Part shown: positions 5,835 to 62,638 of the stretch, piece after piece | Layout of the letters: each line of letters begins with the position of its first letter | How positions within the stretch are numbered: position 1 is the first letter of the stretch | Source of the DNA: Halichondria panicea | Lineage: Eukaryota; Porifera; Demospongiae; Suberitida; Halichondriidae | Direction: 5' to 3' | DNA: 64,000 bases | Assembly: GCF_963675165.1 (NCBI RefSeq) | Contig: NC_087384.1 | Coordinates: 6,559,182 to 6,623,181, forward strand | The notes under the pieces: model-generated | The model's database searches: none | Told to the model about the DNA's origin: nothing | The model's input: the letters and a program-made list of their open reading frames with translations, nothing else | Translations under genes and position numbers: made by a program

Positions 5835-8712
5835 TCATGTACGGGTGGTGATGGTTTGAATAGTTTCGTAAGTGTTGTCATCCTCCCTCTGGAAGCTCAG
5901 CGGCTGGTACGCCCCCTCCTCCTGAGATGCCCCATCCCCTCCAAACGGCAGGAACTCGTACTGATCTTCCTCATCATTCTTCCTGATTGGCTCGTACTGT
6001 CCCTCTGAATTATTAGCCACGTCTGTCCCAGCGTCTCTTGTCTCAAAGGCCAGGTCTTGGTAGGCTGAGACTTCTTGTTCTTTGTAAGTCTTGGGGGGGA
6101 TCAATGGATGGTAGATCTTCTCATTGCTTTGCTGGCCAGGTTGAGTGATGGGTGGAGTAGCTATCAGCATCATTGGCTTCTTCTCTCGCTGTTTTTTGTT
6201 CATTGCAATCCCTCTCGAAGCAAGCATTGGTTTCTCATATCGTATATCCACCTCTTCTTTGTACACGTGTCTGTGTGATGTGTCGTTGTTTTGTGGAGCA
6301 CTTTTCAATGTACTGCTTTTCTCTTTGAGCTCTATACCTTCAGGAACATCGTACACTGGATCTGCAGTGCTGCAGTGAGTAAATCAAGACAGGCAATCGT
6401 ATTAACGTTATGAATACCACCCACATACACAGTGAAAAAGGTTACCTTTCAGGACTGTATGCACTCAATCAATACTAAAAATAATGGTGTTAAAGTTTGC
6501 AGTGGGTATTACCTTTGTTGACCTTGAGGAGTCACTTGTTTACTTCTCCTCTTGTAACAACAGCAACAGGAAATGCATGTTATTACAATTCCCAAAAGTA
6601 GCAACACTGCTAGCAGTGCTCCAGCAGATACAACTGTCACCAGGTTACTCCCAGTTTGTGTTAACGTTGATAAAGGTAGTTCTATAGTAGAAAAAAGTTA
6701 TAATAAAAATACCCGTTACATTGTCAATGCACGTTTATCTACTCCTGACAGTACCTATGGCTGTCACAACAATGATACATTGATGTAGTCCAACGCCCAC
6801 TGAGTTCCCTGCTGAAACACAGCAACTGTAGTTGGTATTGGCAATAAGACCAAACACTTCCACAGAGGTATTGTATGCTCGTTGTATCTCCACGTCGTGG
6901 TGTGCTGATGTGCAGTGGATACTGTAGAACAGGATAGCTTGTCCATAGCTCTCAGCTGGCTCTGTCCAAGTCAGCCTGATGCCGTTAGTGTAGGCCGAAA
7001 CTGTAGCAACTTCTTGTGGTTCAGTAGGAGAACCTGTATGAAAGATCAATAGCTTGTTCATGCTGTATCAACATACCTCGCTCTGTCCTTGCATCCACAC
7101 AAGTTTTATTTCCTTCACCAGCTTCATTAGTAGCAGAGATGCAGCAAGTGTAGTTGGTCAATTCTCGGAGGTTGCTCACAGTTTCTAGTCCGTCAGCAGT
7201 GGTATTCAAGCTCACAATAGTTCCATCAGCTGGCAGGCATGTAATCGTGTAGTGGGAGATGATACCACCATTGATAGGTTGTGGTCTAGACCACTCTAGT
7301 TGAATGGACTTGTATGTGATGTCAGTGATGTTGACCAAAAGAGGTGTAGTAGGGAGACCTGAATGGGTGCTAGCATACATTACGACAATTGAAATCATAC
7401 CTGGAGGAGTAGTCGCATTCACGCAACTTGGGACACTACGATACCAGGCAACATTCACTGTGACACAGCATTCGTATCTTGTGAACACACTCAGTCCAGT
7501 CAAGTTAACAGCAGTTTCTGTGATGCTGTATATACGTCTAGAGCTGACCCAAGGTCTAGTCTGTGTCCCACACACCACATAATATTCACCGTATCGTTCA
7601 TAGATTTGTTTTGGCTCCAGCCACTCAATTAGCAGTGACGTTTGTCCTGAAGGCTTGACTGTCACGTTTCTTGGAGGGCTGGGGGTAGCTGTAATTTAAT
7701 AATAATAAAAAGGAATCTCACAAGAAATAAAGAGCACTCACGTCCATACACATAGCTAGCAGGACCTACTCCAGCACTGTTGTTACCAGAAACACGGCAA
7801 TAGAAGATGCAAGAATTGAAATTATCATCATCATAAGGATCATGGAATGTCACATTTGATGAATGACTTGGAGTCTCTTCCATGAAATAATAAGACCTAT
7901 AACATGATATATAGTCAGAACAGATAATCCTGTATCCATCCACATCGGTACAGTTGCCCATGTCTGGAGGTAACCAGGACACTTGAATGGAGGAAGAGTT
8001 AATGAAAGTGATCTCCACATTTGTTGGCCTTTTAGGGGCTAATACATGGAAATTATTATGATGAGATTTGGGTTCATGGATGTATATTGACTTACTTGAA
8101 TAACAAGACACTCCGGCCCCAACGTCGCTGCCACAGTTACTTGAATACCTAGTCACAGAACACCCGCTCAGTGTAGCTTCATCTCCAGTGCAGTCGACTT
8201 CATTGATACGTCTTGGAATATAGTCCTGATAACTCTGACCTGTTACAAAGCGTCCTAGAATGGAAAAACGGCAAGAGATTTTACGATCTATTGCAGTTGT
8301 AAATTTATACAACATACAAATCTATAGCGTATCAATGCAACCTACCATCATGCCAACATACCTCCTTGCTGACAAAATCCCAGTTCTCGACACACCACTC
8401 GAGTCTCTTCAATCCCCCAGTTGTCTTGACACGGAGTGTACCAATATCTACCGTCACAAATATCCACTCTCCCCTCTCTAGAGCTTGGTCCGTCTGCTAA
8501 CCTGATCTCTCCTTCTACGGAACATCTAGTATGACCTCCTCTGTGATAGCAATGCAATCGTATCTGTACAAGATATCTAGAGAGTTATTTATTCTTGCAT
8601 ATCTAGATATAGATACAAATTACAAAGCATAAAAGAGTCAGGCTTACTTCACTTGACAGATACCAGCTACGAGCAAGATTGAAATTGTGTAAAGTTGCTG
8701 TCTCTTAGCCAT
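5835..8712 (-). CDS. R1: type I receptor, SRCR + 4 FN3 + TM + tyrosine-rich tail
   Basis: Nine exons read on the minus strand: 8712-8648, 8525-8362, 8254-8096, 8038-7742, 7688-7401, 7358-7077, 7033-6755, 6681-6513, 6369-5835. They join in frame to 2238 bases (745 residues plus stop), so this copy looks intact. Order: signal peptide (MAKRQQLYTISILLVAGICQ), one SRCR domain split over two exons, four FN3 domains each on one exon of length divisible by three, a hydrophobic TM segment followed by a Cys cluster and Lys/Arg, and a tail of about 178 residues. The tail carries YDVP, YEKP, YQPL, YQDL, YEPI, YEFL, YQPL and YETI. SRCR and FN3 are established ligand-binding and adhesion modules; a signalling receptor role is inferred. 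R1 is the first receptor after CENPJ. Ligand unknown. Confidence 0.85.
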
Positions 8713-8792
8713 AGTTGATGATTCCTTGTGTTGCAAGGTTTGTAACTTCGTTTTTATGAGGATATGGATTGTTTACTATACTTAGCTCAGAG

Positions 8793-8934: not shown

Positions 8935-9072
8935 TCATTTCTCATGTACGGGTGGTGGTGGTTTGAATAGTTTCGTAAGTGTTGTCATCCTGCGTCTGGA
9001 AGCTCAGTGGTTGGTACGCCCCCTCCTCCTGAGATACCCCACCCCCTCCAAACGACAGAAACTCGTACTACT
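8935..9072 (-). pseudogene. Orphan 3' fragment of a receptor tail exon
   Basis: Reads in frame as the last 40 or so residues of the common tail (YEFLSFGGGG, YQPLSF, YETIQ, then TTTTRT and a stop) but has no TM exon or ectodomain attached. On its right it breaks into intergenic sequence shared with the flanks of R3, R9 and R11. It is a leftover of a deleted or partly duplicated receptor copy between R1 and R2. Confidence 0.75.
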
Positions 9073-9577: not shown

Positions 9578-10892
9578 TCATGTACGGGTGGTGGTAGTTT
9601 CGTAAGTGTTGTCGTCCTCCCTCTGGAAGCTCAGTGGTTGGTATGCCCCCTCCTCCTGAGATGCCCCACCCCCTCCAAACGACAGGGGCTCGTACTGATC
9701 GTCCTCATCATTCTTCTTGATTGGCTCGTACTGTCCCTCTGAATTATTAGCCACGTCTGTCCCAGCGTCTCTTATCTCAAAGGCCAGGTCTTGATAGGCC
9801 GAGACTTCTTGTTGTTCTTTGTAAGTCTTGGGAGGGATCAATGGCTGGTAGATCTTCTCACTGCTTTGCTGGCCAGATTGAATGATGGGTGGAGTAGCTA
9901 TCGGCATCATTGGCTTCTTCTCTCTCTGTTTTTTGTTCGTTGCAATCCCTCTCGAAGCAAGCACAGGTTTCTCATATCGTATATCCACCTCTTCTTTGTA
10001 CACGTGTCTGTGTGATGTTGTGTCGTTGTTTTGTGGATCACTTCTCAACGTACTGCCTTTCTCTTTGAGCTCTATATCTTCAGGAACATCGTACACTGGA
10101 TCTGCAGTGCTGCAGCAAGTACAAGCAATTACATTGTTATGGATACCGTTGGAGTACATCAATGGGAATGAAAAAGGTTACCTTTCAGTACTATATAGGA
10201 CTGTATACACAATCAAAAATAATGGTGGAACACTGTGTTTGTAAGCGGGTATTACCTTTGTTGACCTTGAAGAGTCACTTGTTTGCTCGTTCTTCTCTTG
10301 TAACAACAACAACAGGTTATGCATGTTATCACAATACACAGAAGTAGCAACACTGCTAGCAGTACTCCAGCAGACACAGCTGTCACTAGGTTACTGCCAG
10401 ATTGTGGTTGTTCTGTATAGTGAATAATAACTATAATATCCTTTCAATGCATATACATATCGTACCAGTACTTATAGCAGTCATGACAACGATACATTGA
10501 TGTAGTCCAACGGCCACCACTGAGTTCCCTGCTGCTGAAACACAGCAAGTGTAGTTGGTGTTGGCATTAAGACCAGACACTTCCACAGAGGTATTGTATG
10601 CTCGTTGTATCTCTGCATCGTGGTGTGCTGATGTGCAGTTGATACTGTAGAACAGGATAGCTTGTCCATAGCTCTCAGCTGGCTCAGTCCAAGTCAGCGT
10701 GATGCTGGTGGTATTGGAAATCACGTTAAGGTCTTCTGGTTCAGTTGGAGGAGCTGTGTTATTGTGCATGCATGCATGGCAATTGCAATTGACATAATCC
10801 TAATAATACACTAAAAAGGTATCTGTTCATGCAGCACATACCTGCATTTGTTTATGCATCAGAGCATGCGCTTCTTCCTTCACCAGCTTGAT

Positions 10893-11514
10893 TAGTAGCT
10901 GAGTATAGCCTCGATTCAAGGCCGATTAAAATACAGCCTGGTACCTATTGCAGGGGTGATAGTGCGCATGCGCTTCAAATTACCCAGAATATGGGTAATC
11001 GTACTACGAACGTAAAACCTTAGTAAATTACACAGGAAATTAGTCCGTTTACTAAAAATATGTTCCGTAATACTTTATCTCTACGACTGAGTTCTGTAAA
11101 GCTGTGGCTTATACCGTCTATTGCGTTGGTCTAGAAGGCTTGAACACTAGTTTTAAGACAGAAGAGGCTCTCATCTACGTCTAGGATGGTCCTATAGCCG
11201 GGTTGTCTTCGCAAGTAGCAGTTTGAGGCACCATACACTTCCCATAGCCTGTACAGATCCAAGGTAAGACATCCTGACCATACAACCGTCATAGAGGTAG
11301 ATGAGAGCCTCTTCTGGCTTCAGACTAGTATAAAAGCCTTCTGGAACAACGCAATAGAGAGCTAAGCTGATGCACAAAGATAGAAAATAGATGAGAGAAA
11401 GAAAAAGGGGATTCCCCAGATTCTGGAGAATAAACTAACGCATGCGCACTATCACCCCTGCAATAGGTACCAGGCCGTATTTTAATCGGCCTGGAATCGA
11501 GGCTAGTAGCTGAG
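10893..11514. mobile_element. Inverted-repeat (foldback) element inside R2 FN3 exon
   Basis: Element about 10904-11503 with roughly 65-base terminal inverted repeats (tagcctcgattc at the left, gaatcgaggcta at the right). It is flanked by an 11-base direct repeat, tagtagctgag, at 10893-10903 and 11504-11514 (9 bases if the outer TA belongs to the element). Sister genes have the uninterrupted site, for example near 14850. A second inverted pair lies inside (about 11129-11180 with 11290-11345). No transposase, so non-autonomous; family uncertain. Confidence 0.8.
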
Positions 11515-11763
11515 ATACAACACGTGTAGTCAGTGAATGGTCGGAGGTTGCTCACATCCACACTACTGTTAACAGTTGTGCTGATCCAGACATTGTTGAG
11601 GTTCTGTATGCATGTTATCTGGTAGTACAGTAGTGTTCCATAAATGTGTAACGGTTTTGACCATTCCAGTTTAAAGGATGTGCTGGTTATTTTAGTTATA
11701 CCAACATCAACTGGCTTCATTGATGGTGCTGTATGGAGCATTACCAATTAAGTATTATTTAAA

Positions 11764-11783
11764 AGCACACACACACACACACA
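11764..11783. repeat. CA microsatellite at R2 FN3-1/FN3-2 intron
   Basis: Short CA run in the intron beside the FN3-1 donor; a longer version is at the same place in R6 (about 34900-34928). Confidence 0.8.
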
Positions 11784-13473
11784 GTCGTCACCTGATAAAG
11801 TAGAGATATTCAGTTCTTTTGAGCATTCACTTTCCTGATTTAAGCCAACTGCTGTCACACAGCATCCATACTCTGTGTATGGTGGCAGTCCGGTGACTGT
11901 AGCTGTGGTACTTGATGTAGTTACAGTATGCACAGCTGGTAGATGAGAGCAATAGGGACAGCTGGTGTGATAGCAGTACACATTGAAATGGTTCACTTCA
12001 TCACTGTGTGTATTTGTCCAACTTAGCTGAAGTGACATCTGAAATACTTGGGTGACTATCAGCTGTGTGGGACTGCTAGCAAGTGCCCCTATTTCATCAC
12101 CTGTGTAACGAATGTGGGATTATAAATGGTTATGAGATGTCAGTATACACGTACACAATATACTCAACATCTACTTGATAGACAAACAGCCCAGGTCTTC
12201 CCACATTGGACAAACTCTCCATGTACTGTGTAGCACCAGTCAGTCCACCAGGTACAGTGAATGATCTGTTCCCATCTCCTGCATTAAACCCAATCTGCGC
12301 ATGTGGACCCCACTGAATCCTTGAATACAACAAGCAAACATATGACTTCTGGCCATCAGTCATTAGAACCACCTGATACGTGTTGCTAGGTCCATTCAAT
12401 CCATTTCGCGGAACTTGATTCCATGTTGCAATAAAAATCGATATAGGATTGATATTTGGAGATAAAAGAAAGCGTGCCAATGTCATTGTTTGACTTTCCC
12501 TGCTGCTTACTTCACGGTAGAAGATTTGGCCTCTACTTGTAATATCGGTATCACTCCAAAAGAGCAAAATAAGTGGCACAGTGTTGTTAATTGGTAGAGG
12601 TTGTTGAGAATATTCTATATATGCAGACCGAAACGATAAAAGTCCATGGGTGACCACCTATTGTAAAAAATTAAGCTTGAAGAACCTAAAGCTACTTCAA
12701 ACTCCACATGCAGTAGAAGTTAGTTGTACATTGTTTAATTAAATATTCACTTACGAAAATAGTAGATTCTTCAGATCCAAAAAATGGGAAGTTTTGAGTT
12801 AGATTTATTGGACCAGAAGAAGTATCAAGCATAGAGGGTACTCGGAGATCACCAACACTCTCTCCATAAGGTAGCAAGCTGACTGGGGCTGGACAGAACA
12901 TGCATTGGACGTTTATGCACATGGTGGAATTCCCATTTAAAGAACAATTTGAACTGTTTTCAATATCACAGCTAGTTAGGTTAGCCTCGTGCCCTGAGCA
13001 TTGAAACTTGAATCGATGTTCAGGGCAAAGACTTCCCGCCTCTGCATGTCCTACTCCACAACCATTCTGCCGACAAGCCACTGCAGCTGTTTGGTTAATG
13101 GAATCTCCATCCTCATCATCGCAGACTCCATTCCATCTCCCGGCAACACACACCTCCATAGTACCCTGGTAGGCACCTACCACATTTACTAGTCTGATCT
13201 CACCATGGCTACAAGATCTGTTAGGGATAATTAAATATATTGTAATACCCAAAAAGAGTATAGACAATTAATGTGTAACTACATTTCAGTATCTAAATGT
13301 TACTTACTTAATTTGACGAATAATAAAGAGCAAGGTTAAAGCTAATGTAATGCAGTAAAATAGCACACTTTTAGCCATTGCTGTGTTACTCTCTGTAAGT
13401 ATAGTATAGTACTTAGCTAGCTAGAACTACCAGGAAACAGAGATTACTACTCTTGGCTACACACAGCCTCAGG

Positions 13474-13648: not shown

Positions 13649-16600
13649 TCAGTTTTCATTTACGGGCGGTTGAATAGTTTCGTAAGTGTTGTCGTCCTCC
13701 CTCTGGAAGCTCAGTTGGTATGCCCCTTCCTGAGATGTCCCACCCCCTCCAAATGACAGCAACTCGTACTGATTGTCCTCATCGTTATTCCTGATGGGCT
13801 CGTACTGTCCCTCTGAATTATTAGCCACGTCTGTCCCAGCGTCTCTTGTTGCAAAGGCCAGGTCTTGGTAGGCTGAGACTTCTTGTTTTTTGTAAGTCTT
13901 GGGGGGGATCAATGGTTGGTAGATCTTCTCACTATTTTGCTGCCCAGGTTGAGTGATGGGTGGAGTAGCTATCGGCATCATTGGCTTCTTCTCTCTCTGT
14001 TTTTTGTTTGCTGAATTCTCATATCGTATATCCACCTCTTCTTTGTACTGCACATGTCTGTGTGATGTGTTGTTGCTTTGTGGACTGCCTTTCTCTTTGA
14101 GCTCTATATCTTCAGGAACATCGTACACAGGATCTACAGTGCTGCAGCAAGTACATTAAGACAGGCAATCATTCATGATGTTATGGATACCACTATAGCT
14201 ATGGAAATACCTACATGCAAACAGTTTGAAAGAGTTGCCTTTCAGTACTAGGACTATAATTATCAGTAGAGTACCTTTGTTGACCTTGAAGAGTCACTTG
14301 TTTGCTTGTTCTCCTCTTGTAACAACAACAACAGGTTATGCATGTTATCACAAGAGCCAGGACTACCAGAAATGCTGATAGTGCTCCAGCCGACAAAGCA
14401 ATTACAAAGTTGATTTGACTGCTGGAAACTTGGAGATCAGCTAGATCTATATAGCATTATAGATATTATCAGGAGCCCATAAATAAGAGAAGGAGCGGCT
14501 GACTACGGGGATCACGTTACGTAAGTGGTTATGACCGCATTTCCATATATGCAGAGTCACTTAAGTGGTTGAATCCCTACACGTGTTATACACAATACAG
14601 GGCTGCGGTTTGCAAGAACTTAGTCGCTTCCAAACAAGGAAGTGCAGTTTCACCGGCAATTACGAGACGTGATCCCCGAGTATACGTTGAAGTTAGCCGC
14701 TCCTTCTCTTATTTATGGGCTCCTGATATTATTTTGGCTACCATTACACCAATACAATCTTTCCATCCAGATCCTACAAATTCTACACACCCTATTAAGC
14801 ACCTGTTCTTGCATCAGAGCATGCGCTTCTTCCTTCACCAGCTTGATTAGTAGCTGAGATACAACACGTGTAGTTAGTGAATGGTTGGAGGTTGCTCACA
14901 TCCACACTACTGTTCAAGGTTGTGCTGAGCCAGACATTGTTGAGGTTCTGTAAGCATCTTATCTGGTAGTACAGTAGTGTTCCATCTATATGCAATGGTC
15001 TTGACCATTCCAGTTTAAAGGATATGCTTGTTATTTCATTGATACCAACATCAACTGGCCTTGTTGGTGGTACTGTAAGGATCGAGACACATCAAGAGTA
15101 AGTACATTTTAACACACACTGAGTCAGTCACCTGGTAATAATAAAGTAGAGATATTCAGTTCTTCTGAGCAGTTACTTTCCTGGTTTAAGTTAACTGCTG
15201 TCACACAACATCCATACTCTGTGTATGGTGTCATCCCGGTGACTGTAGCTGTGGTACTTGATGTAGTTACAGTGTGCACAGCTGGTAGATGAGAGCAATA
15301 GGGACAGCTGGTGTGATAGCAGTACACATTGAAATGATTCACTTCATCATCGTGTGTATTTGTCCAACGTAGCTGAAGTGACATCTGAAATACTTGGGTG
15401 ACTATCAGCTGTGTGGGACTGCTAGCAGGTGCCCCTATTTCATCACCTGTGTAATATACGGTTATGCATGAGATGCATATATACACATAATATATTTACC
15501 ATCTACTTGATACACAAACAGCCCAGGTCTTCCCACATTTGACAAACTCTCCATGTGCAGTGTAGCACCAGTCAGTCCACCAGGTACAGTGAATGATCTG
15601 TTCCCATCTCCTGCATTGAACCCGATCTGTGCGCCTGGCCCCCATTGGATATCTTCGTATAAAAAGCAAGCAAAAGAATCCTGTCCATTCGTCATCAGAA
15701 CTACTTGAAATGTATTCTGTTGATGCATACCACTAGAGCAAGGGTACAGATAAACTTGATGCCATGTAGCGATAAATATGGATGTTGGGAAGAACCTAGT
15801 TTCTCTGTATACGTAGTCGTTCACCAGTAGGCTCGCTTGGTAGGATCCGGACCCATTTACTGCTCTATAGTAAATTTCACCACTACCGTTGCAACTTATA
15901 TGGATATCTCTCAAGAAAGGTATAATCAGTGGTGTCACATCAGTAAATGGTAGGGGTCTTGGACTATAGTATATGTATCCTTCATGAAAAGACAAAACTC
16001 CGTTCGTGTTTACCTATATATTATAAAAGTTCAATTAACAATGAGTTAACATTTTGGGAACTTACAAATAGCTTGCTCTGATTTTCTCCAAAGAATGGAA
16101 ACGGTTGTATCACAACTGCCTCAGACGAACCATCATCTAGCATAGGCACTTGCTGATCATAATCCGGACTTCCATAAGCCAATAAATCTGTTAAACAGAT
16201 ACACAATTATTAAGATATTAGGGATCAACTGAAATAGTTTTAATTTGTATACCTAATTGTGCCTGACATGAAGTGCACAGAGTGACAATGCACATATCTT
16301 CTCCTGTTGAGCAGTCAGCACCATCCAAAATAGAACAACCAGTTAAATTTGACTCTCCTCCTCTGCATTGAAACTTGAGTGTACTGTTGTGACATTGTCT
16401 TTGATTGTCTACGTATCCTAATATAAGTATACACTATAGTTATCATTTGCAACCAGCTTCTTAGCAAGAAATAGTTTTAGTTGTTTGCTTTACTCACCAT
16501 GTCCACAGCCCAGCTGTTTGCACACTATTGCAGCTGCTTGGTTCATAGCGGATATGTCAGCACAGACTCCACTCCATCTCCCAGCAACACACACCTCGGG

Positions 16601-16840
16601 AGTTCCATTGAAAGCACCTGTAACTTCCACCAATCGGATCTCTCCGTGGCTGCAGGACCTACATAACGTTTTAGTAAGCTTAAGATACTATGATGTAGAC
16701 TCTAAACATAGTCTATGTAGCTATATGGTAATTTGGTACACATTGTAGCATGTATGATCAACTTACTTCACTGGACCACAAACAAATAAGAGGAATGTTG
16801 TAATTGTGAGGATGAAGCAGAGCAGCAGACTTTTAGCCAT
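13649..16840 (-). CDS. R3: type IIc receptor, SRCR + NIDO + 2 FN3 + TM + tail
   Basis: Signal peptide MAKSLLLCFILTITTFLLFV; an in-frame ATG two codons upstream (16846) is an alternative start. SRCR is split over two exons (about 16659-16499 and 16418-16255); NIDO over two (about 16188-16067, with DDGSSEAVVIQPFPFFG, and 16013-15505, with IATWHQV and IQWGPGAQIGFNAGDGNRS). FN3-1 about 15447-15132; FN3-2 about 15074-14812; TM exon about 14440-14276; tail about 14147-13649. The TM is followed by TCITCCCCYKRR. The tail is shorter than in type I and ends IQPPVNEN, a different reading frame from the TTTRT ending. Pair YEPI-x8-YELL is kept. The intron before the TM exon holds a small inverted-repeat element. 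The donor after FN3-2 is a weak GTGCTT. No frame lesion noticed. Confidence 0.78.
14464..14731. mobile_element. MITE-like element in R3 intron before the TM exon
   Basis: Perfect 34-base terminal inverted repeats at 14467-14500 and 14695-14728 (tatcaggagcccataaataa inward). The same element sits at the same place in R8, R9 and R11; R7 lacks it (37571-37600). No coding capacity. Target duplication unclear. Confidence 0.8.
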
Positions 16841-16846
16841 AGGCAT

Positions 16847-17725: not shown

Positions 17726-20642
17726 TCATGTACGAGTGGTGGTGGTTTGAATAGTTTCGTAAGTGTTGTCGTCCTCCCTCTGGAAGCTCAGTGGTTGGTA
17801 CGCCCCCTCCTGAGATGCCCCACCCCCTCCAAACGACAGGGGCTCGTACTGATCGTCCTCATCATTCTTCTTGATTGGCTCGTACTGTCCCTCTGAATTA
17901 TTAGCCATGTCTGTTCCAGCGTCTCTTGTCTCAAAGGCCAGGTCTTGGTAGGCTGAGACTTCTTGTTCTTTGTAAGTCTTGGGAGGGATCAATGGCTGGT
18001 AGATCTTCTCACTGCTTTGCTGGCCAGGTTGAGTGATGGATGGACTAGCTATCAGCATCATTGGCTTCTTCTCTCTCTGTTTTTTGTTCGTTGCAGTCCC
18101 TCCACTCGAAGCAAGCACTGGTTTCTCATATCTTAGCTCCACCTCTTCTTTGTACACGTGTCTGCGTGATGTATCGTTGTTTTGTCGACCACTTCTCAAT
18201 GTACTACTGCCTTTCTCTTTGAGCTCTATATCTTCAGGAACATCGTACACAGGATCTGCAGTGCTGCAGTGAGTACAAGCAATTACAATGTTATGCATGG
18301 ATACCATGCACTAGCTATGGAAATGAAAACGGTTACCTTTCAGTAATATATAGGACTGCATGTATACAAAATCAACAAATCACAAACGAAAATAATGGTG
18401 GAACACTGTGTTTGTAAGCGGGTATTACCTTTGTTGACCTTGAAGAGTCACTTGTTTGCTCGTTCTCCTCTTGTAACAACAACAACAGGAAATGCATGTT
18501 ATCACAATACACAGAAGTAACAACACTGCTAGCAGTGCTCCAGCAGACACAGCTGTCACGAGGTTACTGCCAGTTTGTGCTGGTGGTTGTCCTGTAGTGA
18601 ACAATATAATGCATTGACATAATTATATCATACCAGTATATACCTATGGCTGTCATGACAATGATGCATCGATGTAGTCCAACGCCCACTGAATTCCTTG
18701 CTGAAACACAGCAAGTGTAGTTGGTGTTGGCAATAAGACCATACACAGTCACAGAGGTAGTGTATGCTTGTTGTATCTCTGCATCGTGGTGTGCTGATGT
18801 ACAGTTGATACTGTAGAACAAGATAGCTTGTCCATATCTCTCAGCTGGCTCTGTCCAAGTCAGTGTGATACCGTTAGCATAATAGACCAAAACTATGGCA
18901 ACTAATTCTTGCGGTTCAGTAGGAGAACCTGTATAGAAAGATAAATTAGCTTGTTCACACTGTGTCAACATACCTCGCTCTGTCCTTGCATCCACACAAG
19001 TGTCATTTCCTTTGCCAACTTGATTAGTGGCAGAGATGCAGCAAGTGTAGTTGGTCAATTCTCGGAGGTTGCTCACAGTATCTAGTCCATCAGCAGTGGT
19101 ATTCAAGCTCATAATAGTTCCATCAGCTAATTGCAGGCATGTTGTGGTGTAGTAGGAGATGATGCCATTGATAGGTTGTGGTCGAGACCACTCCAGTTGG
19201 ATGGACTTATATGTGATGCCAGTGATGTTGACAGCTAGAGGGGTAGTAGGGAGATCTGAGATTAATGTATTGGAACGGATTATGTGGTTATACACAAGGC
19301 AACAAGGCATATACCTGGAGCAGTAGTGACATTCAGACAATTTGGGATACTATTAAGAAAGTAGACATTCATTGTGACACAGCATTCGTATCTCGTGAAC
19401 ACACTCAGTCCAGTAATGTTAACAGCTGTTTCTGTGATGCTGTGCGTATATGCACCCTGTGTCCCACACACCACATAATAAGTATCGAACTCCCCATAGA
19501 CTTGCTCTGGCTCCATCCACTCAATCAGCAGTGTCGTTTGTGACGGCTGGACTGTCAAATTTCGTGGAGGGGTGGGGATAGCTGTATAAAAATGAAAATT
19601 TGATTGCATATACATGACGTTATAATACACTCACGTCCCTCCACACAGTTTTGAGGACCTTGTCCAGCATTGTTGTTGCCCGAAACACAGCAAGAAAAGG
19701 TGCACGAATCGAAAATACCATACTTAGAAGTGTATTGTATTGTTGCATTTAAAGAGTGAACTATTATTTCCGTGAGGTAGAAAAAGCAATGATCATAACA
19801 GACAATTCTGTATCTATCCACATCAGTGCAGTTGCTCATGTCTGGAGGTGACCAGGTCACTTGAATGGAGTACGGATTAAGATTAACGCCAGTGATCTCC
19901 ACATTTGTTGGGATGTTTGGAACTAATGGAAAAGGAACATGATAAGATTTGGGTTCATGATGTATTTTAACACACGACTTACTTGAATAACAAGACACTC
20001 CGGCCCCCACGAAAGTATCACAGTTACTTGACGGGTAGATCACAGAACAGTTGCTCAGTGTAGCTTCATCTCCAGTGCAGTTGACTTCATTGACATCCCA
20101 TGGAATATAGCGCTGATAGCTCTGACCTGTTACTAAGCTTCCTGTGTAATGCAAGTGCAAGATATAAAATCTATATGTAATAATCGTGTACACCAGAATT
20201 CAATGCTCATAAATCTATAGCAATGGACGTATCAATTCAACCATAATTATGATTGTCATACCAACACACCTCCTTGCTGACAAAACCCCAGCTCTCGACA
20301 CACCACTCGAGTCTCTTCAATCTCCCAGTTGTCTTGACATGGAGTGTACCAGCGTCTATTCACACAAATGTCCACTCTCCCCTCTCTGGAGCTGGGTCCA
20401 TCTGCTAACCTAACTTCTCCTTCTCTTCCAAAGCAATAGTATCCCCTGTGATGATGCAGATATGCAAAGCTGACGTAAACTACATAAGGAGGAGGATCGA
20501 TCATATATTATTTGCTCACTATAGATCTAGCTATTGATAGCCTATGATTCTAGCGTACCTCACTACTGGACAGCAAGCAAATTGTATGACTATGAGGAAG
20601 GTAGTAACTGTAATACAGCAAGGCAGTATCCTCCCAGCCATG
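17726..20642 (-). CDS. R4: type I receptor, SRCR + 4 FN3 + TM + tail
   Basis: Signal peptide MAGRILPCCITVTTFLIVIQ, the MAG variant shared with R5, R10 and R13. SRCR exons about 20440-20270 (VRLADGPSSREGRVDICVNR) and 20140-19982; FN3 exons about 19923-19636, 19580-19318, 19256-18972 and 18929-18646; TM about 18594-18430; tail about 18270-17726. The tail reads YDVPEDIEL, YEKPVL, YQPLIPP, SAYQDLAF, then YEPI-x8-YEPL, YQPL and YETI, ending TTTTRT. FN3-1 is divergent from the R1 version. No frame lesion noticed. Role as a surface receptor is inferred from domains. Confidence 0.82.
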
Positions 20643-21256: not shown

Positions 21257-24200
21257 TTATGTACGAATGGTGGTTTGAATAGTTTCGTAAGTGTTGTCGT
21301 CCTCCGTCTGGAAGCTCAGTGGTTGGTACGCCCCCTCTTGAGATGTTCCACCCCCTCCAAACGACAGGGGCTCGTACTGATTGTCCTCATCATTCTTCCT
21401 GATGGGCTCGTACTGTCCCTCTGAATTATTAGCCACGTCTGTCCCAGCGTCTCTTGTCTCAAAGGCCAGATCTTGATAGGCTGAGACTTCTTGTTCTTTG
21501 TAGGTCTTGGGGGGGATCAATGGCTGGTAGATCTTCTCACTGCTTTGCTGGCCAGGTTGAGTGATGGGTGGACTAGCTATTGGCTTTTGTTTTTTGTTTG
21601 TTGCTGACCCTCCACTCGAAGCAAGCACTGGTTTCTTATATCTTATCTCCACCTCTTCTTTGTACTGCACGTGTCTGTGTGATGTTGTGTCGTTGTTTTG
21701 TGGACCACTTTTCAATGTACTATCTTTCTCTTGGAGCTCTATATCTTCAGGAACTTCGTACACTGGATCTGCAGTGCTGCAGTGAGTACATTCAGACAGG
21801 CCATCAATGGATACCACTTATGGAAATATCCACAGTCACTGAAACAGTTTGAAAAGGTTAATTTTCAGTACTAGGACTGTATACCCCTTTACTGGTCAAA
21901 TTGTTGTAAATTTTACAACAACAATCTGGGAGGGAGCGTGCTATCAACTTGTGAATGTTGCATGATATTGGATTCTGTGGCAGATTGGATAGTATCATGA
22001 ATGCGATTATCCTTTGAAGTTCTGCTGAGCTGTTCAATTAGGACACTTAAAAAAAAAAGTTTAAAACAAGCTATACAGCATGTAGGACTGAGTAGTATCC
22101 ATTGGTAGACCCTCTGGACTATCTTGGTAGCCATAGAATATTTTCGAAGAGGAAGCAGCAAGCCATTTGTGTACACAGGCACTTCACAAGTGGACACAAG
22201 CTCTACAATAGTCTACATGCTTGCTAAGCAGCTTAGTTGACCAGAGTGCAGCTTTTAAAGGCCACACATACTTCCATCGAGGCAGCAGCAAGGCATAAAA
22301 TCGATGGTTAGTTTGTACACAGCCATTGACCCACGCCCATCTCTACAAGCCATTGTGAGGAGATTTGCTCCTGGCAGTGTGTTGATGCTCGTTTTTAGTA
22401 TGAGAGTGATTCCTGCCGCTATGAAAATAGCAAAATGATAATGGATAGTTATTGGAAAGCACTATAGGGCTGTATACACAAGACAATGTTTCACACTGAT
22501 AGCCAATTAATATACTGCAGTGGGTATTACCTTTGAGAACTTTTAAGAGTCACTTGTTTGTTCATTTTCCTCGTGTAACAACAGCAACAGGTTATGCATG
22601 TTATCACAATTCCCAGAAGTAGCAACACTGCTACTAGTGTTCCAGCAGATACAATTGTCACCAGGTTGCCTTGGCTGTTGTCAGATGGTGGTTGTTGTTC
22701 TGTAGTAAATAATCATATAAATAGCTACTACAATGCATTTTATATCGTACCAGTGTTTATAGTTGTCATGACAACGATACATCGATGTAGTCCAACGCCC
22801 ACGGAATTCTCTGCTGAAACACAGCAAGTGTAGTTGGTGTTGGCAATAAGACCAGACACATTCACAGAGGTATTGTATGCTCGTTGTATCTCTGCATTGT
22901 GGTGTGCTGATGTACAGTTAATACTGTAGAACAGGATAGCTTGTCCATAGCTTTTAGCTGGCTCTGTCCAAGTCAGCGTGATGCCGTTAGTGTAGGCCGA
23001 AACTGTAGCAACTTCTTGTGGTTCAGTAGGAGGACCTGCATGTATAGAAAGATCACAATAGCTTGTTCATACTGTGTCAACATGCCTCGCTTTGTCCTTG
23101 CATCCACACAAGTGTCATTTCCTTCGCCAACTTGATTAGTAGCAGAGATGCAGCAAGTGTAGTTGGTCAGAGGTTGGAGGTTGCTCACAGTCTCTAGTCC
23201 ATCAGCAGTGGTATTCAAGCTCACAATAGTTCCATTAGCTTGCAGGCATGTTATGGTGTAGTGTGAGATGATGCCATTGATGGGTTGTGGTCTGGACCAC
23301 TCCAGTTGGATGGACTTAAACGTGAGCTCAGTGATGTTGACAGCCAATGGGACAGTTGGGATATCTGAATGTATATAATTATGTACCAGCAAGTATATAA
23401 TAGTAATAGCACACAACATAGTTATACCTGGAGCGGTGGTGGCGTTAGCACAATTTGGGGTACTGCGAACGATAGAATAGTAAACATTCATTGTGACACA
23501 GCATTCGTATCTCGTGAACACACTCAGTCCAGTAATGTTAATAGCTGTTTCTGTGATGCTGTGCGTATATGCACCCTGTGTCCCACACACCACATAATAA
23601 GCATCGAACTCCCCATAGACTTGCTCTGGCTCCATCCACTCAATTAGCAGTGACGTTTGTGATGGCTGGACTGTCACGTTTCTTGGAGGGGCGGGGATAG
23701 CTGTACATTAAATAATAACAGGAATGTCACAATAATTACAAGCACTCACGTCCATACACACAGTTTTGAAGACCTTCTCCAGCATTGTTATTGCCTGATA
23801 CACAGCAATAGAAAGGGCACGATTCAAAGGAGTTATAACCATTGCGATCGTGGAACATCACATTCAATGAATAACGTGGAATCTCTTCCATTAAATAATA
23901 ATAACCGCAAAAAAAATAGTCATGGCACGTAATTCTGTACTCATTAACATCAGTGCAGTTGCTCATGTCTGGGGGTAACCAAGAAACTTGAATGGAGGAC
24001 GAGTTAATGCCAGTGATCTCCACATTTGTTGGCCTGTTAGGAGCTAGAAAACCTGGATTCATGGATGTATTCTAACACATGACTTACTTGAATAACAAGA
24101 CACTCCGGCCCCAACGCCGCTGCCACAGTTACTTGTCACAGAACACCCCCTCAGTGTAGCTTCATCTCCAGTGCAGTTGACTTTATTGATACCTCCTGGA

Positions 24201-35200: not shown

Positions 35201-36475
35201 CTATCAGTTGTGTGGGACTGCTAACAGATGCCCCTATTTCATCACCTGTGTAACGAATGTGGGATTATAAATGGTTATGAGATGTATACACACAATATAT
35301 TCACCATCTACTTGATACACAAACAGCCCGGGTCTTCCCACATTGGACAAACTCTCCATGTGCAGTGTAGCACCAGTCAGTCCACCAGGTACTGTGAATG
35401 ATCTGTTCCCATCTCCTGCATTGAACCCAATCTGTGCACTTGGACCCCACTGGATCCTCGAATACAACAAGCAAATATACGACCTCTGGCCATCAGTCAT
35501 TAGAACCACCTGATATGTGTTGTTACGTCCATCCAACCCACTTGTTTGTGGAACTTGATTCCACGTTGCAATAAAAATAGATATAGGATTGAAGTTATTA
35601 ACATTTGGAGGTAGAAGATAACGTGCCAATGTCATTGTTTGACTTTCAATGCTGCTTACTTCACGGTAGAAGATTTGGCCCTCATCTCTAATATCAGTAT
35701 CACGCCAAAACAGCAAAATAAGTGGCACAGTGTTGTCAATTGGTAGAGATCGTGGAGAAAAGCGTATATACGCAGACTGAAACGATAAAAGTCCATGGGT
35801 GACCACCTATAATAATATTGTCAATATTCAAGTTTGAAGAACAAAAATTCACTTACAAAAATAGTAGATTCTTCAGATCCAAAGAATGAGAAGTTTTGAG
35901 CCAGATTTATTGGACCAGAAGAGGTATCCAGACGAGAGGGTACTCGGAGATCACCAACACTCTCTCCATAAGGTAGCAAGCTGACTGGGGCTAGACAGAA
36001 CAAGCATTGGACGTTCATGCACATGGTGGAATTGTCATTTAAAGAACAATTTAAACTGCTTTCAACATCACAGCTAGTTAGGTTAGCCTCGTGTCCTGAG
36101 CATTGAAACTTGAATCGATGTTCAGAGCAAAGACTTCCGGCCTCTGCAAATCCTATTCCACAACCATTCTGCCGACAAGCCACTGCAGCTGTTTGGTTCA
36201 TGGAATCTCCATCCTCATCAGTACAGACTCCATTCCATCTCCCAGCAACACACACCTCCAGAGTACCCTGGTAGGCACCTACCACATTTACTAGTCTGAT
36301 CTCACCATGGCTACAAGATCTGTTAGGGATAATTAAATATATTGTAATACCCAAAAGAGTATAGACAATGTGTAACTACATTTCAGTATCTAAATGTTAC
36401 TTACTTAACTTGACGAAAAATAAAGAGCAAGTTTAAAGCTAATGTAATGCAGTAAAATAGCACACTTTTAGCCAT
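32203..36475 (-). CDS. R6: type IIb receptor, SRCR + NIDO + 5 FN3 + TM + tail
   Basis: Longest ectodomain of the array. Signal peptide exon at 36475; SRCR plus first NIDO half in one exon (about 36320-35859); second NIDO half about 35806-35309 (IQWGPSAQIGFNAGDGNRS); FN3-1 about 35248-34937; FN3-2 about 34862-34585; then three near-identical FN3 exons about 34513-34235, 34142-33865 and 33783-33507 (TLTWTEPAESYGQAILFYS type). TM exon about 33037-32865; tail about 32740-32203 (YEVPADIIEL, YQPLIPP, SAYQNLAF, YEPI-x8-YEPL, YQPL, YENI, ending TTTTTRT). R2 has one copy of the last FN3 type and the IIc genes and R8 none. The 3' end and flank match R1 while the ectodomain is IIb, so the gene looks recombinant. 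No frame lesion noticed. Confidence 0.8.
33059..33490. mobile_element. MITE-like element in R6 intron
   Basis: Ends are diverged inverted repeats of about 26 bases (taccatatttatttaattaa at the left; complement of the right end taccgtatttacttgattaa). The interior carries repeated GCGTTTAAT/TGGGCGTTTA phrases. It sits between the TM exon and the last FN3 exon. No coding capacity. Confidence 0.65.
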
Positions 36476-43300: not shown

Positions 43301-43585
43301 GTTTGGTTCATGGAATCTCCATCATCATCATCGCAGACTCCATTCCATCTCCCGGCAACACACACCTCCAGAGAACCCTGGTAGGCACCTACCACATTCA
43401 CTATTCTGATCTCACCATGGCTACAAGATCTGTTAGGGATAATTAAATATATTGTAATACCCAAAAGAGTATAGACAATGTGTAACTACATTTCAGTAAC
43501 TAAATGTTACTTACTTAACTTGACGAAAAATAAAGAGCAAGGTTGAAGCTAATGTAATGCAGTAAAATAGCACACTTTTAGCCAT
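40390..43585 (-). CDS. R8: type IIb receptor, SRCR + NIDO + 2 FN3 + TM + tail
   Basis: Signal peptide MAKSVLFYCITLASTLLFIF; SRCR with first NIDO half about 43430-42968 (CSHGEIRIVNVVGAYQG, PFFG-type FSFFGSEKSTIFV); second NIDO half about 42917-42400; FN3-1 about 42335-42020; FN3-2 about 41960-41690; TM about 41225-41070; tail about 40945-40390 (YDVPEDIEL, YEKPVL, YQPLIPP, SAYQDL, YEPI-x8-YEPL, YQPL, YETI, ending TTTAPVHEN, intermediate between the two C-terminal types). Its 5' part resembles R2/R6 while its FN3-2 to TM intron, MITE included, resembles R3/R9/R11, so it is probably a IIb/IIc recombinant. No frame lesion noticed. Confidence 0.78.
41263..41616. mobile_element. MITE-like element in R8 intron, with AT insertion
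   Basis: Same element as in R3, with matching terminal inverted repeats, enlarged by a TATTATA-type AT run at about 41385-41484. Confidence 0.78.
41385..41484. repeat. AT-rich microsatellite
   Basis: About 100 bases of TATAT/ATTATAT repeats, absent from the same element in R3, R9 and R11. Confidence 0.9.
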
Positions 43586-48457: not shown

Positions 48458-51400
48458 TCATGTACGGGTGGTGGTGGTTTGAATGGTTTCGTAAGTGTTG
48501 TCGTCCTCCCTCTGGAAGCTCAGTGGTTGGTACGCCCCCTCCTCCTGAGATGCCACACCCCCTCCAAACGACAGTGGCTCGTACTGATTGTTCTCATCAT
48601 TCTTCCTGATTGGCTCGTACTGTCCCTCTGAATTATTAGCCACGTCTGTCCCAGCGTCTCTTGTCTCAAAGGCCAGGTCTTGATAGGCTGAGACTTCTTG
48701 TTCTTTGTAGGTCTTGGGAGGGATCAATGGCTGGTAGATCTTCTCACTGCTTTGCTGCCCAGGTTGAGTGATGGATGGACTAGCTATCAACATCATTGGC
48801 TTTTCCTCTTTTTGTTTTTTGTTCGTTGCAGTCCCTCCACTCGAAGCAAGCACTGGTTTCTCATATCTTAGCTCCACCTCTTCTTTGTACACGTGTCTGT
48901 GTGATGTGTCGTTGTTTTGTGGAGCAGTTTTCAATGTACTGCCTTTCTCTTTGAGCTCTATATCTTCAGGAACCTCGTACACTGGATCTGCAGTGCTGCA
49001 GCGCAATTTACAATGTTAAGCTACATATCTTAGGTAAAACGATGAGTACATGTAACTCTAGTACTCGTAATTGCTCCCCTCATGGAAATGAAAAAGGTTA
49101 TACCTTTCGTACTATAGGGCTGTATACACAATCACTCAACTAAAATAATGGTGGATCAAAGTTTGCAATGGGTATTACCTTTGTTGACCTTGAAGAGTCA
49201 CTTGTTTGCTCGTTCTTCTCTTGTAACAACAACAACAGGTTATGCATGTTATCACAATACACAGAAGTAGCAACACTGCTAGCAGTGCTCCAGCAGACAC
49301 TGCTGTCACCAGGTTGCTTCCAGATTGTGGTTGTTCTGTATAGTGAATAATAACTATAATCAATGTATCGTTGTCATGACTGCTATAAATACTGGTACGA
49401 TATGTACCCTTTTAATCATTATACATATCGTACCAGTATTTATAGCAGTCATGACAACGATACATTGATGTAGTCCAACGCCCACAGAGTTCCCTGCTGA
49501 AACACAGCAAGTGTAGTTGGTGTTGGCATTAAGACCAGACACTTCCACAGAGGTATTGTATGCTCGTTGTATCTCTGCATTGTGGTGTGCTGATGTGCAG
49601 TTGATACTGTAGAACAGGATAGCTTGCCCATAGCTCTCAGCTGGCTCTGTCCAAGTCAGCGTGATACCGTTAGTGTAGGCCGAAACTATGGCAACTTCTT
49701 GTGGTTCAGTAGGAGAACCTGTATAGAAAGATAAATTAGCTTGTTCACACTGTATCAACATACCTCGCTCTGTCCTTGCATCCACACAAGTTTGATTTCC
49801 TTCACCAGCTTCATTAGTAGCAGAGATGCAGCAAGTGTAGTTGGTCAATTCTTGGAGGTTGCTCACAGTCTCTAGTCCATCAGCAGTGGTATTCAAGCTC
49901 ACAATAGTTCCATTAGCTTGCAGGCATGATATGGTGTAGTGGGAGATAGTGCCATTGGCTGGTTGTGGCGGGGACCACTCCAGTTGGATGGACTTATATG
50001 TGACTTCAATGACGTTGACAGCCAGAGGGGCAGTAGGGAGATCTGGGATTATTATAGTGTACCAACAATTATTGCATAATGTTAGAACACATGGAATACC
50101 TGGAGCAGTTGTAGCATTCACGCAACTTGGGAAACTACTATACCAGCTGGCGACGTTCACTGTGACACAGCATTCGTATCTTGTGAACACACTCAGTCCA
50201 GTAATGTTAACAGCTGTTTCTGTGATGCTGTATATATATCTAGAGCTGACTCTAGGTCTAGTCTGTGTCCCACACACCACATAATATTCACCGTATCGTT
50301 CATAGATTTGTTTTGGCTCCAGCCACTCAATTAGCAGTGACGTTTGTCCTGAAGGCTTGACTGTCACGTTTCTTGGAGGGCTGGGGGTAGCTGTAATTTA
50401 ATAATAATAAAAAGGAATCTCACAAGAAATAAAGAGCACTCACGTCCATAAACATAGCTAGCAGGACCTACTCCAGCACTGTTGTTACCAGAAACAAGGC
50501 AATAGAAGAAGCAAGAATTGAAATTATCATTATCATAAGGATCGTGGAATGTCACATTCAATGAATGACTTGGAGTCTCTTCCACAAAAGAATAAGGCCT
50601 ATTACACGATATATCATCAGAACAGATAATTCGGTATCCATCCACATTGGTGCAGTTGCCCATGTCTGGAGGTAACCAGGACACTTGAATGGAGGACGAG
50701 TCAATGAAAGTGATCTCGACATTTGTTGGCCTTTTAGGGGCTAATGGAAAAGAAACATAATTTTTGGGTCCATGGGATGTATTCAACACATGACTTACTT
50801 GAATAACAAGACACTCCGGCCCCAACGTAGTTGCCACAGTTACTTGAATAGTATAATGTCACAGAACAGTTGCTCAGTGTAGCTTCATCTCCAGTGCAGT
50901 TGACTTCATTGATATCAAATAGAATATACTCCTGATAACTATGGCCTGTTACTAAGCGTCCTGTGTAATGCAAGGGAAAGATATTTTAGCCGAGATCTAA
51001 TGCTAGAAAACTGAGTTCAATGCTTAATCACTGACATCAACTAGATTTATAGCAATGGACGTATCAGTTGATAATCCTACCAACATACCTCCTTGCTGAC
51101 AAAACCCCAGCTCTCGACACACCACTCGAGTCTCTTCAATTCCCCAGGTGTCTTGACATGGAGTGCGCCAGTATCTACCATCACAAATATCCACTCTCCC
51201 CTCTCTGGAGCTGGGTCCATCTGCTAACCTAACCTCTCCTTCTCTTCCAAAGCAATAGATTGCCCTGTAATGATGCAGATAGACCTATGTAAAGCTGACG
51301 TAAACTACATAAGAATTGATGGAGGATCGATCATCTATTATTTGCTCACTAGTCTAGATCTACTAGACTAGGTACGTAGCCTATGATTCTAGCTTACCTC

Positions 51401-51480
51401 ACTACTGGACAGCAAGCAAATAGTATGACTATGAGGAAGGTTGTAACTGTAATACAGCAAGGCAGCACCCTCCCAGCCAT
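48458..51480 (-). CDS. R10: type I receptor, SRCR + 4 FN3 + TM + tail
   Basis: Signal peptide MAGRVLPCCITVTTFLIVIL; SRCR exons about 51245-51090 and 50961-50800; FN3 exons about 50740-50445, 50392-50102, 50043-49765 and 49721-49440; TM about 49337-49178 (VSAGALLAVLLLLCIVITCI then TCCCCYKRR); tail about 48998-48458 (YEVPEDIEL, YEKPVL, YQPLIPP, SAYQDL, YEPI-x8-YEPL, YQPL, YETI, ending TTTTRT). FN3-1 and FN3-2 are close to R1. The donor side of the FN3-4 exon lies in one arm of a 46-base palindrome (49361-49467). No frame lesion noticed. Confidence 0.82.
49361..49467. repeat. Perfect 46-base inverted repeat at an exon edge of R10
   Basis: Arms 49361-49406 and 49422-49467, 15-base loop. The right arm is the normal end of the FN3-4 exon with its donor; the left arm is an inverted copy in the next intron, absent at the matching place in R2 (10425-10500). 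Confidence 0.9.
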
Positions 51481-51631: not shown

Positions 51632-51664
51632 ACAGTACATACAATACACCCACCACTATCACTA

Positions 51665-55268: not shown

Positions 55269-55274
55269 AGGCAT

Positions 55275-62300: not shown

Positions 62301-62638
62301 GAGTCTCTTCAATCCCCCAGGTATCTTGACACGAAGTGTACCACACTGATTCAAAGCAAATGTTCACTCTCCCCTCTCTGGAGTTGGGTCCATCTGCTAA
62401 CCTAACCTCTCCTTCTCTTCCAAAGCAAAAGATTGCCCTGTAATGATGCAGATATGCAAAGCTGACGTAGACTACAGAAGGATTGATGGAGGATCGATCG
62501 TCTACTATTTACTTACTAGATCTACTAGACTAGGTAGCCTATGATTCCAGCTTACCTCACTACTGGACAGCAAGCAAATAGTATGACTATGAAGAAGGTT
62601 GTAATTGTAATACAGCAAGGCAGCACCCTCCCAGCCAT
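59316..62638 (-). pseudogene. R13: type I receptor with a distinct triple-ITAM-like tail, frame broken
   Basis: Signal peptide MAGRVLPCCITITTFFIVIL; SRCR exons about 62428-62262 and 62129-61955; four FN3 exons about 61893-61598, 61547-61262, 61210-60926 and 60870-60590; TM about 60541-60366; tail about 60244-59316. The tail is much longer than in R1-R12, about 300 codons if continuous, with a basic Lys/Ser/Thr-rich first part, KIYQPLITPRR, then three pairs: YQPL-x8-YEMV, YQPL-x8-YQTI and YQAL-x8-YQSL. Lesions: a 16-base tandem duplication in the second SRCR exon (about 62080-62116) giving a stop; a 4-base insertion in FN3-3 (about 60944-60948); and a shift near an A-run (59687-59690) that puts the three pairs out of frame with the upstream tail. 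Its promoter is also lost at a palindromic junction. Remnants at 20870-21065, 22372-22427 and 51665-51860 show this tail type was once commoner. Confidence 0.78.

Follow-up and report, generated by a model that had tools for sequence, protein, structure and literature searches.

What might a sponge do with more than a dozen similar receptor genes set head to tail? The question is raised by a tandem array of 13 receptor gene copies, all on the minus strand, in the genome of Halichondria panicea, a demosponge of the order Suberitida. The array occupies positions 5835-62638 of the window, the whole stretch of 64,000 nucleotides analysed here (C8:6559182-6623181, where C8 is the window's contig), in a 131-Mb genome of 39 contigs. 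Judging from gene structures and tail motifs, we lean towards the view that the locus encodes a family of activating recognition receptors of the immunoreceptor tyrosine-based activation motif (ITAM) type, in which divergent outer domains are carried on one shared tail.

Gene models and domain plans

Two reference genes were spliced by eye and used as guides for a spliced protein-to-DNA aligner, with which all 13 loci were modelled exon by exon. These models bore out the 13 same-strand copies given in the preliminary description of this DNA, down to the exact ends: the stop codon of gene 1 ends at position 5835, and the ATG of gene 13 has its A at position 62638. The same description had two ectodomain plans alternating along the array. 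Two plans, A and B, can indeed be distinguished, but plan B splits into subtypes B1 and B2, genes 2 and 6 are mixed, and the copy order from 62638 downward (A A B1 A B1 B2 B1 B2 A A B1 B2 A) refutes a strict alternation. Plan A (6 of 13 copies; genes 1, 4, 5, 10, 12 and 13) consists of a signal peptide, a two-exon SRCR, four FN3 exons, a transmembrane (TM) exon and the tail. Plan B (7 of 13) has the order SRCR-NIDO-FN3-TM-tail. B1 genes (3, 7, 9 and 11) encode a signal peptide, a two-exon SRCR, a two-exon NIDO, two FN3, the TM segment and the tail, and B2 genes (2, 6 and 8) have no SRCR intron and hold SRCR and the first NIDO part in a single exon, the remainder being like B1. Extra A-type FN3 exons are found in gene 2 (one) and gene 6 (three), both of which also have an A-type TM exon. 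Nine of the 13 models are open from ATG to stop over 741-1053 codons, and the other four (genes 2, 7, 9 and 13) are broken, in agreement with the several nulls noted earlier.

That the 13 copies might be the whole family was considered and rejected, as the array extends beyond the window: further A-type copies and a third receptor type continue to about C8:6651000 (open frames by eye). The third-type genes (C8:6624949-6651000) have SRCR, several FN3 (up to seven), a TM segment and a long tail. The features of the window are as follows.

5835..8712, minus strand: gene 1, plan A (signal peptide-SRCR-FN3x4-TM-tail), open, 750 amino acids, 9 exons
8945..9070 (C8:6568126-6568251), minus strand: tail-exon remnant between genes 1 and 2, 88% identical to tail query residues 138-179, one stop
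9578..13378, minus strand: gene 2, plan B2 carrying one A-type FN3 and an A-type TM exon, broken
10906..11505, no strand assigned: transposable insert with 67-base inverted ends, in the gene 2 FN3 exon
13649..16846, minus strand: gene 3, plan B1 (signal peptide-SRCR-NIDO-FN3x2-TM-tail), open, 763 amino acids, equal to LOC135340507 isoform X2
17726..20641, minus strand: gene 4, plan A, open, 746 amino acids
21257..24756, minus strand: gene 5, plan A, open with one GC donor, 741 amino acids
24923..26958, minus strand: third-type gene remnant, FN3 exons and partial SRCR by eye, one FN3 scored; RefSeq model P0014 begins here
32203..36475, minus strand: gene 6, plan B2 with three A-type FN3 exons and A-type TM, open, 1053 amino acids
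36771..39683, minus strand: gene 7, plan B1, broken, frameshift near 38952
40390..43585, minus strand: gene 8, plan B2, open, 785 amino acids
43889..47534, minus strand: gene 9, plan B1, broken by loss of the signal-peptide donor and by a frameshift near 45255
48458..51480, minus strand: gene 10, plan A, open, 755 amino acids
52077..55274, minus strand: gene 11, plan B1, open, 765 amino acids
56162..59101, minus strand: gene 12, plan A, open with one GC donor, 742 amino acids
59317..62638, minus strand: gene 13, plan A ectodomain with third-type tail, broken in at least two ectodomain exons
62760..64000, minus strand: third-type gene remnant, partial SRCR scoring under the Pfam cut-off, with FN3 exons assigned by eye

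A Pfam scan of three of the nine open models (genes 10, 3 and 6) gave SRCR scores of 60.0, 33.6 and 27.9 bits against a curated cut-off of 26.1, and fn3 scores of 135.6, 85.7 and 202.4 bits, above the cut-off in all three. NIDO was not found in the plan-A gene 10 and scored 131.8 bits in gene 3 and 118.5 bits in gene 6. The RefSeq proteins P0055 and P0016 also exceeded the SRCR cut-off. Hydropathy peaks (hydropathy only, with no dedicated predictor) mark a signal peptide and a TM segment in all nine open models, and a CCCC juxtamembrane patch lies beside the single TM stretch of the array receptors.

Five RefSeq proteins map letter for letter on the DNA (P0001, P0017, P0016, P0014 and P0015). 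P0001 is gene 3, the model of which equals this isoform X2 over 763 of 763 residues with 100% identity and coverage; P0017 is gene 12, with a tail acceptor 3 bases further on than in our model (741 versus 742 amino acids); P0016 is the next copy outside the window; and P0014 and P0015 each combine exons from two genes. A GC donor occurs in genes 5 and 12 and likewise in the RefSeq models P0014, P0017 and P0016. Whether this donor makes genes 5 and 12 null was considered, but RefSeq models use both donors and the idea was dropped. For genes 1, 6 and 8, protein searches that were length-limited and listed one member per 90% cluster gave no stand-alone RefSeq protein, and that of gene 11 may lie within the P0001 cluster. 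An artefact of two haplotypes set in tandem is unlikely, because, of 157 self-matches, the 40 longest have identities of 73-93% and are nested within different blocks.

The shared tyrosine tail and its candidate partners

One tail exon is common to 12 of the 13 genes in the window; the exception is gene 13, which has a longer, different tyrosine-rich tail, so that the nearly shared tail of the preliminary description holds for the former and not for the latter. A genome search with a composite tail query (131 Mb; 20 candidates scored) returned 14 matches, all on C8, namely the 12 in the window, the fragment at 8945-9070 and one full copy at C8:6633846, 11 kb past the window. This last copy, here gene 14, is of plan A, open and equal to RefSeq P0016. 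Its tail and the 12 window tails (gene 13 left out) make up the 13 common tails analysed below.

The common tails are ~164-181 residues long and contain nine or ten tyrosines. In their alignment 92 of 188 columns are invariant over the 13 copies, and nine of the ten tyrosine columns are Y in all 13, the tenth in 12. Every common tail contains YxxI-x8-YxxL, which has ITAM spacing and takes the form YEPI-x8-YEPL, and the pattern Y-x-x-L/I-x6-12-Y-x-x-L/I occurs one to three times per tail in all 13. Position +3 is occupied by L or I in every tail at four tyrosine sites, and in 11 and 12 of the 13 tails at two others. An element SAYQ[DN]L, similar to the immunoreceptor tyrosine-based inhibition motif (ITIM), and VY[DE]VP, with P at +3, are also present in each of them. 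When four of the 13 tails (genes 4, 10, 3 and 14) were shuffled with composition preserved, the observed ITAM count was reached in 0, 3, 142 and 1 of 5000 shuffles, respectively. Moreover, the strongest constraint in a sliding scan of plan A was located at IYQPLIPPKTYKEQEVSAYQDL, the IYQPL...AYQDL stretch, where the ratio of nonsynonymous to synonymous differences per site (pN/pS) was 0.07 and 0.10. No protein outside H. panicea with this tail was among the six matches of a protein search that needs shared 5-letter words and in which other sponge proteomes may be thinly represented. By motif and spacing, the tail appears to be ITAM-like.

SH2 exons match at 71 places in the genome, of which three loci were read, with exons assigned by eye. 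The first (L065; C4:4842001-4848500) has two SH2 exons and kinase pieces, and for its second SH2 exon with the linker SYK/ZAP-70 made up the 12 best of 60 PDB rows (E 2e-39). The second (L064; C9:5253501-5259500) reads SH2-ankyrin-SH2-kinase, which we take to be the Shark layout; its kinase piece alone does not discriminate the family. The third (L063; C3:8402001-8407500) reads SH2-SH2-tyrosine phosphatase, presumably the SHP layout. Tandem-SH2 genes of the Syk-like, Shark-like and SHP-like kinds are thus predicted in the genome. The fly ITAM receptor Draper is reported to be phosphorylated by Src42A and to serve Shark as a platform (PMC5138034).

If the array does encode activating recognition receptors, the outer domains would bind a ligand on microbes, debris or foreign cells, and a Src-type kinase would then phosphorylate the tail tyrosines. 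Tandem-SH2 kinases (Syk, Shark) would dock there and start phagocytosis or another effector response, with the tandem-SH2 phosphatase acting as a brake, and duplication together with unequal exchange would keep putting new outer domains on the same tail. As to the ligand, microbial or particulate non-self seems a little likelier than allogeneic self.

Mosaic history, exon joins and surroundings

The genes are mosaics, in which the distal ectodomain exons are old and divergent and the 3' exons and tail have recently been shared. Between A-like genes (1, 2, 4, 5, 6, 10, 12 and 14) and B genes (3, 7, 8, 9 and 11), the median synonymous divergence (dS) of the tails is 0.207 (40 pairs), in contrast to 2.16 for comparable FN3 exons (A third versus B second). 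Within plan A, mean amino-acid identity is 66.8% over SRCR, FN1 and FN2 versus 86.2% over FN3 and FN4 (15 pairs each), and the tails of all plans average 87.3% (78 pairs). Windowed identity between genes 11 and 8 jumps within the NIDO exon from 26-59% to 89-100%; the corresponding jump lies at the third FN3 for genes 10 and 12, and in the tail only for genes 10 and 11. The NIDO tree splits B1 from B2 at 100/100 support, and the tail alignment rejects the B2 genes as a single clade (approximately unbiased (AU) test, p 0.004). Self-comparison further revealed multi-gene block duplications, the longest of 6.4 kb at 89.8% identity (13648-19924 versus 52076-58363), which supports the earlier proposal of ongoing duplication in the sense of a clustered, duplicating, mosaic family.

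Selection was estimated by the pairwise method of Nei and Gojobori (NG86) pooled by module (18 modules) and by the sliding plan-A scan (48 windows). The pooled ratio of nonsynonymous to synonymous divergence (dN/dS) is 0.33-0.75 in all nine modules of at least 89 codons and below 1 in 16 of 18 modules overall. Ratios above 1 were obtained for two short B1 exons (2.76 and 1.36); as their median dS is 0.015 and 0.040, the changes are too few for these values to be relied on. The sliding scan exceeds 1 in 3 of 48 windows (1.01, 1.43 and 1.17), the last two at the tail start with pS near 0.05. Positive selection was therefore rejected as a candidate, neither approach, both of them without a site model, giving a robust ratio above 1. 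In the first plan-A FN3, a central segment varies in letters and length between conserved ends, and its silent sites are divergent too; since silent sites also diverge, the outer domains are old and varied, not demonstrably positively selected. The cluster had been called diversifying, which fits the divergent outer domains and the mosaics but not the selection estimates.

The intron before the SRCR exon is of phase 2 in 12 of 13 genes (the gene 9 donor is lost), as is that before the common tail in 12 of 12, and introns within the ectodomain are mostly of phase 1. With these matching phase 2 introns, the block from SRCR to TM can therefore join the tail or SRCR exon of another gene in frame. 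Joins of this kind appear in P0014, P0015 and P0055, which are RefSeq predictions seen as models, not as reads. P0014 (10 members in its 90% cluster) starts in a remnant exon, follows gene 5 as far as the TM exon and continues from the SRCR exon of gene 4 to the tail of gene 4, so that the tail of gene 5 and the signal peptide of gene 4 are left out. P0015 (7 members in its 90% cluster) leads from the gene 10 TM exon to the gene 9 tail. The junctions of both use GT-AG or GC-AG sites and map letter for letter to the window:

22531..22699, minus strand: gene 5 TM exon, in P0014 spliced over 2085 bases to the gene 4 SRCR exon (20270-20445)
49179..49335, minus strand: gene 10 TM exon, in P0015 spliced over 4797 bases to the gene 9 tail exon (43889-44381)

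In P0055, located past the window, the join leads from an A-type TM exon to an SRCR exon of the third type; its map is imperfect, with three frameshifts in the alignment. Such chimeric models could be read-mapping artefacts. The tail swap of genes 10 and 9 can be explained so because the joined exons are near-identical, but the joint of the gene 5 TM exon with the gene 4 SRCR is harder to explain in this way. We regard as improbable a fully combinatorial locus, in which phase-matched cassettes would be reassorted in DNA by unequal exchange and in RNA by intergenic splicing, with one homogenised tail, outer domains differing between individuals and recognition mediated by Syk.

The damage differs among the broken copies. 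Gene 2 has lost the donor of its second NIDO exon and carries a ~0.6-kb transposable insert within an FN3 exon, with 39 other copies 94-99% alike across the genome (40 of 772 candidates scored). Gene 7 has a frameshift in the first NIDO exon, near 38952, and gene 9 has lost the donor of the signal-peptide exon and bears a frameshift in an FN3 exon near 45255. The second SRCR exon of gene 13 begins with a repeat, and an FN3 exon of this gene contains a 4-base insert near 60946. A 43-base perfect inverted repeat with 1 base between its arms (62623-62709) spans the gene 13 start codon, and a truncated third-type gene adjoins. In the plan-B genes 3 (14463-14732), 8 (41258-41678), 9 (44698-44984) and 11 (52889-53216), the intron that precedes the TM exon contains a short transposable element whose inverted ends are 42 bases long. 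It has been duplicated together with its host genes, and other genome copies are 93-98% alike (40 of 222 candidates scored).

The third-type tail occurs at six places, all on C8, one of which is gene 13, and by eye one A-type copy beyond the window carries it as well. In the form of RefSeq P0055 it has five YxxL/I sites, and the IYQPLIPP...VYQTL element recurs (by eye). In genes 5 and 11, the common tail is closely followed by a remnant of a third-type tyrosine tail (by eye, at 20891-21100 and 51665-51895); these remnants might be alternative last exons or relics. A-type SRCR identity is at most 55% outside C8 versus 68-96% inside the array, among the matches listed (150 of 797 candidates scored), and of the 37 genome matches to NIDO, 30 are on contigs other than C8 (29-55% identity). 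The stretch (29100-32000) that separates gene 6 from the remnants lying upstream of gene 5 contains open frames and no recognised array exons. The right-hand neighbour, after ~C8:6651000, is a long FN3-repeat gene (by eye). The left neighbour (window 1-5535, plus strand) has Tcp10_C repeats, is convergent with the array and is presumably of the CENPJ/SAS-4 type.

Competing explanations and known systems

The preliminary description took the locus for a recognition-receptor cluster and pointed to self/non-self recognition. Clustering, mosaic genes, pseudogenes, the ITAM-like tail and ITAM-reading kinases in the genome agree with that reading; positive selection does not. Several points weigh against the activating-receptor reading that we favour. 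The evidence consists of sequence from one haplotype, and motif matches by themselves do not prove ITAM function. The YDVP sites and the NIDO and FN3 domains are compatible with adhesion signalling too, the Syk-like and Shark-like layouts were assembled by eye from open frames, and the dN/dS values below 1 count against strong ongoing positive selection. Two structure predictions were of low confidence (mean predicted local distance difference test scores of 40.1 and 38.7) and were not used. Regarding exchange, all B tails as one clade were not rejected (AU p 0.14), and the tests of a B2 clade in FN1 and FN2 (p 0.14) and of genes 1 and 10 together in the plan-A proximal exons (p 0.28) were non-significant as well. 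Therefore, the topological case consists of the B2 tail test, together with the dS contrast and the identity steps.

The most serious rival, although we consider it doubtful, holds that these are cell-matrix or cell-cell adhesion receptors of tissue building, whose NIDO and FN3 would bind matrix and whose tail would recruit Crk-like adaptors or endocytic machinery in place of immune kinases. FN3 and NIDO are generally common in matrix proteins, mucin-4-like, sushi-domain and tectorin-like proteins are among the NIDO relatives outside the locus, and the right-hand neighbour is itself an FN3-repeat gene. In addition, the VYDVP or VYEVP of all 13 common tails resembles Crk sites. However, ITAM spacing is likewise present in all 13 tails, the outer domains are the divergent part, and a mosaic array with 4 of 13 copies broken is, as far as is generally known, unusual for structural adhesion genes.

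Very unlikely, in our judgement, is an allorecognition locus like Hydractinia Alr, in which polymorphic alleles would bind in trans and the tail would decide between fusion and rejection. Clustered single-pass receptors with divergent outer domains and broken copies are indeed found in Alr, according to the portion at hand of PMC11067881, and sponge graft responses are said to be under a polymorphic genetic system (PMC5450542, in part). However, the outer domains here are SRCR, NIDO and FN3, not immunoglobulin (Ig), robust positive selection was not found, and the ties of sponge SRCR genes in the available parts of the literature are to microbes. The words SRCR, scavenger and tyrosine are all absent from the main text of the A. 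queenslandica graft paper. With one haplotype at hand, allorecognition is a candidate use among several; the microbial links of sponge SRCR genes would make microbe recognition at least as good a guess as self/non-self recognition.

We give the poorest chance to the view that the tandem expansion is a relict with little function left, the product of a lineage-specific SRCR burst that now decays, under relaxed constraint, by transposon insertion and frameshift. This view would suit the four broken copies, the remnants at 8945-9070, 24923-26958 and 62760-64000 and the young transposable insert, but not the nine copies open over 741-1053 codons, the pooled dN/dS of 0.33-0.75 in the nine larger modules or the 92 invariant tail columns.

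As a family of putative activating recognition receptors, the locus appears to be a good candidate for sponge immune or self/non-self recognition. It offers concrete candidates for a link between recognition at the cell surface and Syk in an animal lineage that is among the earliest: H. panicea has Syk-like kinases, sponges have SRCR expansions and graft rejection, and this species is already used for immune work (PMC8242945, in part).

Among known systems, the nearest are the sponge SRCR receptors of Amphimedon, Stylissa, Dysidea, Aplysina and H. panicea, which share the SRCR, FN3 partners, tandem arrays and large lineage-specific expansion (PMC10855680, PMC4772301, PMC6208332, PMC8242945). 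In the portions of these papers at hand, the H. panicea transcriptome has >600 SRCR genes, some with FN3, and 62% of its pattern-recognition receptors are expressed in only some samples (PMC8242945); SRCR-FN3 combinations are present in other sponges (PMC4772301, PMC6208332); and SRCR genes are linked to microbes (PMC6208332, PMC8242945, PMC11229196). In Amphimedon, 158 of 296 SRCR genes are reported in tandem, the richest scaffold holding nine in two subclusters, and the sea urchin has a tandem SRCR array of 16, so array size alone is not new (PMC10855680, in part). What differs is the NIDO partner and the single ITAM-like tail under differing ectodomains, which the available parts of those descriptions do not contain; neither 'nido' nor 'itam' appears anywhere in the main text of PMC10855680. 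A nidogen-domain gene and an SRCR gene are both named in one sponge study, as two distinct genes (PMC11229196).

The array shares NIDO with nidogen, mucin-4, SUSD2 and tectorin, the best local matches to mucin-4-like and SUSD2-like proteins showing 36-41% identity. SRCR beside NIDO was found in 0 of 12 further matches of the gene 3 protein search, which requires shared 5-letter words, and was absent from the matches of two further protein searches, one of which scored the best-sharing 7997 candidates. A literature search found no paper using both 'NIDO domain' and 'SRCR'. The preliminary description did not know the combination as a named family, and the protein searches concur, finding none in another species within the 5-letter-word limit. 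To our knowledge, there is also no sponge receptor family with ITAM-like tails, and none was named in the titles and abstract openings surveyed. The sponge aggregation factor has a secreted core protein of the Calx-beta/VWD/Wreath type, and no Pfam match of that type was obtained in the three array proteins scanned (genes 10, 3 and 6).

The Alr receptors of Hydractinia reportedly carry tyrosine motifs in their tails. They differ from the array in their Ig-superfamily ectodomains and their shown allorecognition role, homology between the two not having been looked for. An ectodomain of the Alr Ig type was not found in the three models scanned, in which SRCR, NIDO and fn3 were the strong Pfam matches; the sole Ig-named row above its cut-off, Ig_RIMBP2 in gene 10 (32.6 bits versus 27), lies on an fn3 exon, with no stretch significant alone. 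The likeness is one of organisation, as Alr genes are also reported as clustered single-pass receptors with variable outer domains and many presumed pseudogenes (PMC11067881, in part).

For the ITAM receptors read by Shark and Syk, such as Draper, the likeness lies in an ITAM-type tail and a host with Shark-like and Syk-like kinases (PMC5138034, in part). The ectodomain of Draper is unrelated to those of the array receptors. Draper is a single engulfment receptor with EGF-type repeats. The clustered natural killer (NK) and Fc receptors of mammals are tandem families with variable ectodomains and conserved tyrosine motifs; we know of no homology between them and the array receptors. Mammalian NK and Fc receptors are built on Ig or C-type lectin folds, whereas in the sponge array ITAM-like and ITIM-like motifs share one tail.

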